Part shown: positions 21,401 to 22,882 of the stretch, one piece after another
How positions within the stretch are numbered: the stretch's first letter is position 1
Layout: each line of letters opens with the position of its first letter
Source of the DNA: Candidatus Hydrogenedentota bacterium
Lineage (GTDB): Bacteria > Hydrogenedentota > Hydrogenedentia > Hydrogenedentales > JAGMZX01
NCBI GenBank assembly: GCA_018005585.1
Contig: JAGMZX010000029.1
Coordinates: forward strand, 1 to 46,572
DNA length: 46,572 bases
Direction of reading: 5' to 3'
Translations under genes and position numbers: made by a program
The notes under the pieces: generated by a model
What the model was told of the DNA's origin: nothing
The model's database searches: none
The model's input: the letters and a program-made list of their open reading frames with translations, nothing else

Positions 21401-21597
21401 CCCAACCTCGCGCCAAGAATGGGGGAGACCCCCGCCTCGCGCGCCGCCTGGTAAAACGGGACCGCCCCGTACAATCCGCCCGTGTCCGCCAGCGCCAACG
21501 CGCGCATCCCGTGCTCGACCGCCCGCGCTACCAGTTGGCGCACCCCGGGCGTTCCCTCCATCAACGAAAACCGGCTATGTGCCTCCAGGTGGATCAT
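18454..21597 (-). CDS. dnaE2: Error-prone DnaE2-like DNA polymerase III alpha subunit
   Basis: A 1047-residue C-family DNA polymerase. The N-terminal PHP domain is recognisable (HSRFSLMEGTPG) but its metal motifs are altered: ADTGGLYG where TDHGNL is usual, and NPVYF where NDVHY is usual. It therefore probably lacks proofreading. The palm carries GRGSAANSAVAYALGITRVDP and the catalytic aspartates of CPDIDLD (Asp378, Asp380), with the third in KMDLLG. A helix-hairpin-helix part and a C-terminal OB fold (about 935-1015) follow. Length is that of DnaE2/ImuC, shorter than replicative DnaE. A LexA-like box lies 10 bases upstream of the ATG. No imuA or imuB is nearby. Residues about 865-890 are encoded by a very AT-rich patch. 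It could be an unusual DnaE1. Confidence 0.82.
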   Translation of the reverse strand: MIHLEAHSRFSLMEGTPGVRQLVARAVEHGMRALALADTGGLYGAVPFYQAAREAGVSPILGARLGPCVVLARDRDGYGQLCFLVTVLQLGEKGHAEQTGRMGNVSSGGADNRGDALERVLSAWPFPFGDEHLFVLSDDTRLIGALLARGLKPLVALTHYGGAAARYRCEKLHAFAKRRGLRAAAMNPVYFLEPRDYRIHQTLCAVRRNTTVDALEPGDAAPPGAWFRAPHEMERLYADWPDALLNTEWAAEQCELELSLGKPLFPELALPDGETPFSSLWKKTFEGAKARYRPLTPAIMDRLHYELGVIDRLGFAPYFLIVWNIVQYARGRGIPILGRGSAANSAVAYALGITRVDPFHYDLYFERFLNPDRTDCPDIDLDMCWRRRDEVVEYVYTRYGSDRVAMIASFNTFQARSALRETAKAHGLTDREIGEVTRRIPHYGAGDIRTLAAHIPECRGLRFDEEPLRSILEIAECIGEFPRHLSMHPCGLVIAPEPLTRFTPLQRAAKGFVVTQYDMGPVEALGLVKMDLLGHRSLTVIDDTLRLIKGNRGVELDLEHVPDRDPLTARLLIKGHTIGCFQIESPAMRGLLPKVRARDTEMVIKALSLIRPGPAGSGMKERFIARCRGLEAVDYLHPALEEVLRDTCGVMLYQEDILKVASAVAGMSLAEADALRRAMTKKRSPREMAKSMKRFIEKARANGVAGGTAQEIWERVASFAAYSYCKAHAATYGELAYRCTYLKAHYTPEFLAAVLTNRGGFYTPHVYLEEAKRFGIEVRPPCINRSAFEYTVEDDAIRIGFIEVRDLSHTAVEAVLEARRHGPFESVADLYERTGIAHADATALFDAGAFDCFAQARPAQFLQLHTTYSKAKQIKTNINNLFLASDNVNAPHVPDYPAKKRTDLEWSALGLLAGPRHPLLYYQNRLQDHQLVLSIDLPHYAGQTVTAAGWLIAQRRVALKDGRGVMKFLTCEDTAGTFEAVLFPETYQQFGPLLTSLGPYLLTGEVQTEHDAPALLVQQVARIQAESLPKVRAAALQQYADEAPADE

Positions 21598-21603
21598 GAT
21601 CCC

Positions 21604-21632
21604 ATTATACTGTATATTTTTTCAGTATGCCA
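21604..21632 (-). promoter_or_regulatory. LexA-like SOS box overlapping the dnaE2 promoter
   Basis: The palindrome ATACTG-N10-CAGTAT spans 21607-21628; its core TACTGTATATTTTTTCAGTA (21608-21627) closely follows the E. coli LexA box, CTGT-N8-ACAG, with one departure (TCAG). On the minus strand a perfect -10 TATAAT (21609-21604) overlaps one arm, with a poor -35 TGGCAT (21632-21627) at 17 bases. The transcript would begin at about 21597, the A of the dnaE2 ATG, so the mRNA may be leaderless. Confidence 0.7.
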
Positions 21633-22126
21633 TCCTGCTCGCGGTTCACCTGTCCGACGCCTGTGGCATACCGCCACCGTCGAGGGTCATCGACTGCCGC
21701 TACGCACCCGATCCCGGGTATCATCCTCCTTGACTCGCTGCTTGCGGCGGTGACGTCGCCGTTGTCTCAGACGTGACCCCGGCGCTTACTCGACTTCCAG
21801 GCGAACACAGGTGCCGCGGGTCGGGCCATGAGACCTGGCTCGGCATGCTGGCCCTGGAACGCACCGGCGTCGTGTTGCCGCAGTCCGTCAACGCTTGCGC
21901 TCCATCGGCTCCGACGGAAAGACCTGAGCGTACGCGCGAACGGCGTCGGCTTGCCCACCGGCCAGAAAAAAGCATGTGGCAAAACGGCATGGGGGATGAG
22001 AGGGGCGCACCCCCGGTCCTCCCGTTCTATCCCTTCTGGGATTTGTTCGGAGCGACTCTTCATCACACACGAAACCCGGGTCGCAGACAGGCGTTCCATG
22101 CAGGATGTTTCAAGAAAGTACACAAT
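21633..22126. other. Intergenic stretch without a recognisable gene
   Basis: About 490 bases upstream of dnaE2. Base composition falls from GC-rich to AT-rich toward 22100. Several frames of 60-137 codons are open on both strands, but none has a good ribosome site, and their Arg/Pro-rich or mixed content looks non-coding. No transposase or integrase fragment is recognised. Confidence 0.45.
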
Positions 22127-22376
22127 AAAAAACTACTGATCTTCTGGTCATCTGGAGTACGCTCCGAATTTTTATTAAGTTCATAACGCGCCTATTAACA
22201 GGATGTTATGCGCTATACGCTGAGAATGTTTCTTAGGTGCGTATATGACATGCTTCTCGTGAGGAAGGACTGCAGACATGCATTGTCTGAGCTCATGGAG
22301 GCATGCTTCAAGATGCGACAGCACAGTTGGAGAGGCTTGTTTTCGAGGTGTAATTCCCTGGGGCGAAAACTAAACA
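22127..22376 (-). ncRNA. Candidate small non-coding RNA downstream of zapA (6S-like position)
   Basis: This stretch is much richer in A and T than its surroundings and has no credible reading frame, yet a well-formed promoter (22411-22383) fires into it. Near the 5' end GTTTTCG (22370-22364) pairs perfectly with CGAAAAC (22345-22339); CAGACA/TGTCTG forms a small hairpin near 22290-22270; and the region ends in six T (22132-22127). In many proteobacteria the 6S RNA gene lies just after zapA, as here, but I could not trace the classic 6S fold with its large central bubble. The identity is therefore open and the 3' end uncertain. Confidence 0.3.
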
Positions 22377-22382
22377 TAATAT

Positions 22383-22411
22383 ATATTATCAGACGTTATG
22401 CCTGTAGGCAA
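22383..22411 (-). promoter_or_regulatory. Promoter firing into the AT-rich region after zapA
   Basis: On the minus strand TTGCCT (22411-22406) and TAATAT (22388-22383) are exactly 17 bases apart, with transcript start near 22376. It lies 115 bases beyond the zapA stop and points to a stretch with no protein gene for about 750 bases. Confidence 0.5.
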
Positions 22412-22525
22412 GACACACCCTTCAGATGCTTTGAGCGCCGCTTAAGATTACGCCCGGCCCAGCTTGTCCCTTGAATACGACCTTCTCTCGGACCGCCTAT
22501 CGCAAGGTACCGATGTCACGTGGTC

Positions 22526-22882
22526 TCAACGCAGACGGGGTTTGCGCTTGGGCATTTGGATGACGGTCGGCGTGGATTTCTCCCGAGGCGGCGGCGCATC
22601 GGTGAGCAGGGCCTCCAGCCTGGCGTGGATGGCGTCGAGTTCCTTGCGGTATCCGTCTTTCAGGTCTTCGATGGTTGCCTCCAGTTCGCGGACCTTGACG
22701 GCGAAGGCGTAGGCGGTCTGCAGTAGGAATGCCTGAGTATCGATGCGGCTGCTGTTGTCCTCTATCTTGCGGTACAGGGCTGCCACCTCGTCTGCTACTT
22801 TCTGGGACGTCGCAGCGTCTAGGTATTGAGCGACCGTGACGGTAATGTTGTTGATTTTGACCTTAACGTTCTTGGCGCTCAC
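22526..22882 (-). CDS. zapA: ZapA-like cell division protein
   Basis: A 118-residue protein. The N-terminal globular part (VKVKINNITVTVAQYLDAATSQKVADEVAALYRKIEDNSS) is the ZapA fold, though the usual I.G..Y.L segment is replaced by NITVTVAQYL. A long helix for tetramerisation follows (AFLLQTAYAFAVKVRELEATIEDLKDGYRKELDAIHARLEALL). ZapA crosslinks FtsZ filaments at the division site. The last 20 residues form a basic tail (MPKRKPRLR) absent from short ZapA proteins. The GTG start overlaps the stop of the upstream coiled-coil gene (GTGA). The pheS-pheT-zapA neighbourhood is common in bacteria and supports the call. Confidence 0.8.
   Translation of the reverse strand: MSAKNVKVKINNITVTVAQYLDAATSQKVADEVAALYRKIEDNSSRIDTQAFLLQTAYAFAVKVRELEATIEDLKDGYRKELDAIHARLEALLTDAPPPREKSTPTVIQMPKRKPRLR

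Follow-up and report, generated by a model that had tools for sequence, protein, structure and literature searches.

The window, i.e., the whole 46,572-nt stretch of DNA that was analysed, was assigned to Candidatus Hydrogenedentota by homologues and is part of an assembly (here G000, with other G numbers denoting related genomes and f numbers denoting families) which comprises 6.08 Mb in 288 contigs and is 97% complete. It carries a gene for an accessory C-family DNA polymerase, the promoter of which is covered by a palindrome predicted to serve as LexA operator (Table 1). Across the promoter, the wider minus-strand stretch reads GATGGCATACTGAAAAAATATACAGTATAATGGGATCATG, while the plus-strand letters of the operator are TACTGTATATTTTTTCAGTA. 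Within positions 21500-22600, a sigma-70 scan identified ATGGCA-N18-TATAAT as the sole promoter-like site (10 of 12 matches), with a -35 element that is weak at 4 of 6 matches. As only six bases lie between the -10 hexamer and the start codon, transcription is predicted to begin (+1) at the A of the ATG. The preliminary description of the locus had reported this box at this position, lying over a promoter whose TATAAT directs the start point onto the ATG, and was found to be right in sequence, coordinates and geometry. An Rfam search of the window revealed no RNA feature near the polymerase gene, its single match being a distant tRNA gene.

Table 1. Features of the polymerase gene, its promoter and the tRNA gene, in window coordinates.
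Feature	Position	Strand	Basis or remark
Accessory C-family DNA polymerase gene, 1047 aa	18454-21597	minus	domain searches, alignment, trees
Predicted LexA operator TACTGAAAAAATATACAGTA, 20-bp palindrome	21608-21627	minus	sequence, matrix score 26.9, conservation
Operator core CTG-N10-CAG	21610-21625		
-10 hexamer TATAAT	21609-21604	minus	overlaps operator 3' end; promoter scan
Weak -35 ATGGCA, 18-nt spacer	21628-21633	minus	promoter scan
GGGATC, six bases separating -10 and ATG	21603-21598	minus	
ATG start codon	21597-21595	minus	1047-codon gene
Predicted transcription start, A of ATG (leaderless mRNA)	21597	minus	geometry conserved in eight genomes
tRNA gene	888-961	minus	lone Rfam match in the window

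Pfam searches with the polymerase identified PHP, polymerase core, fingers and HhH regions next to a weak OB match, whereas the NCBIfam models for DnaE1 (783.6 bits, cut-off 1002) and for the error-prone polymerase DnaE2 (694.8 bits, cut-off 939) were both matched below their cut-offs. Alignment to E. coli DnaE documents intact catalytic aspartates (PDIDLD, KMD), degraded PHP metal residues and the absence of a C-terminal domain; a separate DnaE1 is encoded at G000:C98. In two unrooted trees, the window protein groups, with strong support, with sequences from Planctomycetota and with an enzyme encoded on a Desulfosarcina plasmid, and both trees place it, again with strong support, outside the DnaE1 and the ImuB-linked DnaE2 clades, the separation from DnaE2A being fully supported. 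It was likewise found outside two iPolY/Streptomyces plasmid sequences. Judged from sequence, the polymerase is a member of a third, well-supported C-family clade and not a DnaE2 by descent, and the label "dnaE2-like", which the preliminary description had attached to it, does not hold as worded.

DnaE2 has been split into DnaE2A, which occurs with ImuA/ImuB, and DnaE2B and DnaE2X, which both occur without them (PMC12926913). By gene association the window enzyme resembles DnaE2B, a likeness to be read alongside trees that include no named Bacteroidetes DnaE2B sequences. With the DnaE2B-PolY-RecA module of Bacteroidetes (PMC12926913, PMC6511836) it has in common a DnaE without ImuA/ImuB and an active Y-family polymerase with a RecA-type motif, but the phyla are new and the polymerase and dinB genes of G000 are unlinked, yet both boxed. 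The Desulfosarcina ovata plasmid enzyme (NZ_AP021877.1) is of the same clade (36% identity), and the lexA-DUF72-PolY-dnaE cassette encoding it also links dnaE to lexA and a Y-family protein; it differs in that this Y-family protein is devoid of the N-terminal catalytic motif, and in its long tree branch. NZ_AP021877.1 itself is a mobilizable plasmid on which lexA is followed by the DUF72 gene, the gene for the inactive-looking Y-family protein (annotated as hypothetical) and dnaE (L174:3339-9114).

LexA control was examined at the level of the genome and of its order. G000 encodes one LexA and one RecA, whereby a second LexA was ruled out. Its lexA promoter carries CTGAATTTCTTTACAG, ending approximately 20 bp before the ATG, and its recA promoter carries CTGAACAAAAATTCAC; the search for a differing operator at these two genes hence returned the same box. 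In the same order, the box is located 29-86 bp upstream of lexA in 48 of 51 lexA genes, while the three lexA genes without a CTG-N10-CAG box (G006, G013 and G019; L125, L132 and L131) all belong to family f6, which may have switched its LexA motif. The 43 distinct lexA sites define the operator consensus as CTGAA-N6-TTCAG, and not as the enterobacterial CTGTA-N6-TACAG core; the operator at the polymerase gene is a mixed form (CTGAA...TACAG). For recA promoters of the order, the best site scores at least 14.8 in 30 of 31. The recA operators are, order-wide, mostly asymmetric (GTGAA-N6-TTCAGTAT; L083-L112) with a weakened half-site, as if some leakiness of recA were retained. Like the enterobacterial LexA box (CTGT-N8-ACAG), the Hydrogenedentota operator is a palindrome with CTG-N10-CAG spacing that is placed over the promoter and precedes lexA, recA, dinB and a mutagenesis polymerase, but it differs in its core, CTGAA-N6-TTCAG, and in the recA form, GTGAA-N6-TTCAG. 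Of the earlier designation "E. coli-like LexA box", the spacing thus stands and the core does not, and "E. coli-spaced" describes the site better.

The plain CTG-N10-CAG pattern is not enriched in the window (9 sites versus 10.6 expected), and this frequency would fit a chance palindrome of an AT-rich promoter that has nothing to do with LexA. Pattern counts were of little help here: across the genome, the degenerate pattern STGWA-N6-TWCAG barely exceeds its control (31 versus 26), and true boxes were discriminated only by a weight matrix, trained solely on lexA promoters of related genomes, and by conservation. With this matrix, the operator scores 26.9 and the runner-up site of the 46.6-kb window 8.8, while 5.6 Mb of simulated first-order Markov sequence yielded no site above 20 and hence none near the score of the operator. 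The 6.08-Mb genome contains two copies of the strict palindrome TACTGWA-N6-TWCAGTA, namely in the polymerase promoter and before a helicase gene, and 40 genomes contain 16 in total, as compared to three sites for a control pattern. Considering further that lexA, recA and dinB bear the same box and that it is kept before polymerase homologues in several families, a chance origin was rejected and is regarded as next to impossible.

Further boxed genes were found in G000, the list of which rests on pattern hits and is incomplete. A box with a score of 25.4 lies directly before the gene for a 236-aa DnaQ-like 3'-5' exonuclease (Pfam RNase_T; G000:C121:11430-11445, L148:1489-1515), which might have an editing or DNA-processing role in the SOS response. 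The helicase gene mentioned above encodes a DEAD-type Hel308-like enzyme and is preceded by a perfect box of score 20.5 (G000:C181:5350-5365, L151:1500-1515); its 88%-identical counterpart in the same-genus genome G001 is likewise boxed (L188). Moreover, CTGAACGCGTGTTCAG (score 20.4; G000:C30:3907-3922, L142:1500-1515) is located 28 bp before miaB, encoding a tRNA methylthiotransferase, and could be a real box or a chance match.

Directly upstream of the polymerase homologue, boxes scoring 24-31 were identified in 15 genomes. Five more homologues (G009, G015, G021, G044 and G050) are themselves unboxed and lie approximately 24-475 bp behind a same-strand dinB, which in these genomes is preceded by a box scoring 15.5-23.2; dinB and the polymerase gene hence probably form an operon behind one box. 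No box was found before the homologues of G051 and G017 or in the three DnaE1 promoters scanned, and homologues with a nearby contig end or a missing start were left out of the count. The suggested link of the polymerase to the SOS response is therefore borne out by the box at the genome's own lexA, recA and dinB as well as by its retention before homologues.

The distance between box and ATG is exactly 12 nt in eight genomes, which belong to two families (G000, G010, G027, G035, G038, G045, G053 and G057), each of which possesses TATAAT, TATACT or TATCCT followed by six bases and the ATG, whereby these six bases all differ (GGGATC, GAGGGC, TTTATC, GAAACT, CTAGGC, GTCAGG, GTAGAC, GTACCC). Fixed distance combined with varying letters is the pattern to be expected from selection on a leaderless start. 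Most members of family f10 have a good -35 element (TTGACA, TTGACT, TTGATT or TTGAAA) with a 17-nt spacer, so that the operator itself constitutes the promoter spacer. Other homologues have leaders of 18-57 nt and hence leaderlessness is not universal. These short leaders in several relatives, together with the scatter of a few bases that start sites show about the ideal distance, would be compatible with a LexA-controlled gene whose mRNA nevertheless has a leader, owing to a start a few bases off or to a second promoter. However, 21500-22600 offers no other promoter-like site, the 12-nt distance is exact in eight genomes despite the differing six bases, and the homologues align from residue 1-2, which renders a later start codon unlikely. 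An mRNA with a leader is therefore considered improbable, and the leaderless mRNA, which the preliminary description had predicted from the arrangement and whose exact geometry is shared by seven other genomes, is the favoured reading.

The absence of imuA and imuB from the neighbourhood, as described beforehand, extends to the entire genome, as a whole-genome search identified neither ImuA nor ImuB in G000; the only Y-family gene encodes a DinB that is of the active type by its motifs. Moreover, the absence is systematic: among 60 genomes, 28 possess the window-type polymerase and 14 possess imuB, but none possesses both (hypergeometric 2.7e-5, a value that is too optimistic as the genomes are related). 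Both module types were found within families f1, f3 and f4, the two members of the window's genus included, and the imuA-imuB-dnaE2 cassettes of eight relatives bear the same operator (scores 28-31). According to these sequence comparisons, a single regulator controls two SOS polymerase modules that alternate between genomes. With the ImuA-ImuB-DnaE2 mutasome (DnaE2A) the window system shares a second DnaE without C-terminal domain and with a degraded PHP site, LexA control, and the operator found in the cassettes of sister genomes; the differences are that the window enzyme is of another DnaE clade and that its genome is free of imuA/imuB. On account of its length, domain loss and SOS control, the enzyme might be taken for the canonical DnaE2 of such a mutasome, with imuA/imuB located elsewhere or missing from an assembly in 288 contigs. 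This was rejected, given that none are encoded in G000, that polymerase and imuB co-occur in 0 of 60 genomes and that the enzyme is separated from the ImuB-linked DnaE2 clade by a fully supported branching; hidden imuAB genes are thus highly improbable. In two related genomes (G024:C88, L156; G003:C84), the imuA-imuB-dnaE2 cassette has the gene for a second, diverged LexA as its neighbour. The cassette of G024 has no CTGAA-N6-TTCAG box, and a lexA2 cassette with an operator of its own is the probable explanation.

Considering possible partners of the polymerase, the DinB of G000 possesses intact active-site motifs and a clamp-type motif, QLCLF, followed by EKWEHALESVDRIRARFGFDYLRFGRS, which was identified by eye as the motif resembling the RecA N-terminus that has been described (PMC6511836). 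The dinB gene lies apart from the polymerase gene and has its own box, beginning 26 bp before the ATG. The dnaE of this clade lies immediately behind dinB in Planctomycetota as well as in five Hydrogenedentota genomes, once in the order lexA-dinB-dnaE, and dinB is present in 24 of the 28 genomes with the window-type polymerase; the literature search returned no relevant report on dinB-dnaE operons. Both the gene order and the co-occurrence speak against a LexA-controlled polymerase that acts alone, or in concert with RecA and the standard clamp, the shared box or operon then reflecting common regulation and DinB being no subunit. For such an independent polymerase, on the other hand, speaks that dinB is also present in 5 of the 14 genomes with imuB and in 12 of the 18 that have neither module, that the dinB of family f10 is without a box while the polymerase gene is strongly boxed, and that no dinB was matched in G002 (97% complete), which does have the polymerase. 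From the unboxed f10 dinB and from G002 it follows that DinB is not an obligatory partner everywhere. Action without DinB is hence a serious contender, although held to be somewhat less probable than its opposite, and for the DinB-polymerase partnership as such the balance is about even; as compared to ImuA/ImuB, DinB with its RecA-type motif is the likelier partner.

Taken together, the LexA operator, the geometry of its promoter, the clade of the polymerase and the lack of imuAB are established at the sequence level, and the gene likely encodes an SOS-induced accessory polymerase, expressed from a leaderless mRNA, which stands in place of the ImuAB mutasome. In the suggested mechanism, LexA dimers would bind the palindrome between the -35 and -10 elements and thereby keep RNA polymerase off. 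Upon DNA damage, RecA filaments would trigger LexA self-cleavage and the polymerase gene would become transcribed, presumably from the A of its own ATG, yielding a leaderless mRNA. By its sequence, the enzyme thus formed keeps the active site but is devoid of a PHP metal site and of the C-terminal domain tying replicative DnaE to the clamp loader, and hence it most likely copies past lesions, presumably in an error-prone manner. In doing so it would fill the place of ImuA-ImuB-DnaE2, perhaps together with the SOS-controlled, active DinB with its RecA-type motif. A wider proposal is put forward tentatively and at less than even confidence: in Hydrogenedentota and Planctomycetota, the third-lineage polymerase and an active, RecA-binding DinB may constitute a mutasome that, inside a single SOS regulon, replaces ImuA-ImuB-DnaE2 in one genome after another, in part from leaderless mRNAs with the operator as promoter spacer.

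A literature search on Hydrogenedentes and LexA returned nothing relevant, and CTGAA-N6-TTCAG would hence provide a LexA operator for a phylum whose SOS response was not found described in the literature searched. The mutually exclusive exchange of two SOS polymerase modules, with the regulator unchanged, within single families and even one genus, opens a way to study the requirements of an accessory DnaE that functions without ImuAB, and the predicted leaderless promoter prompts one to ask how stressed cells translate a repair polymerase.
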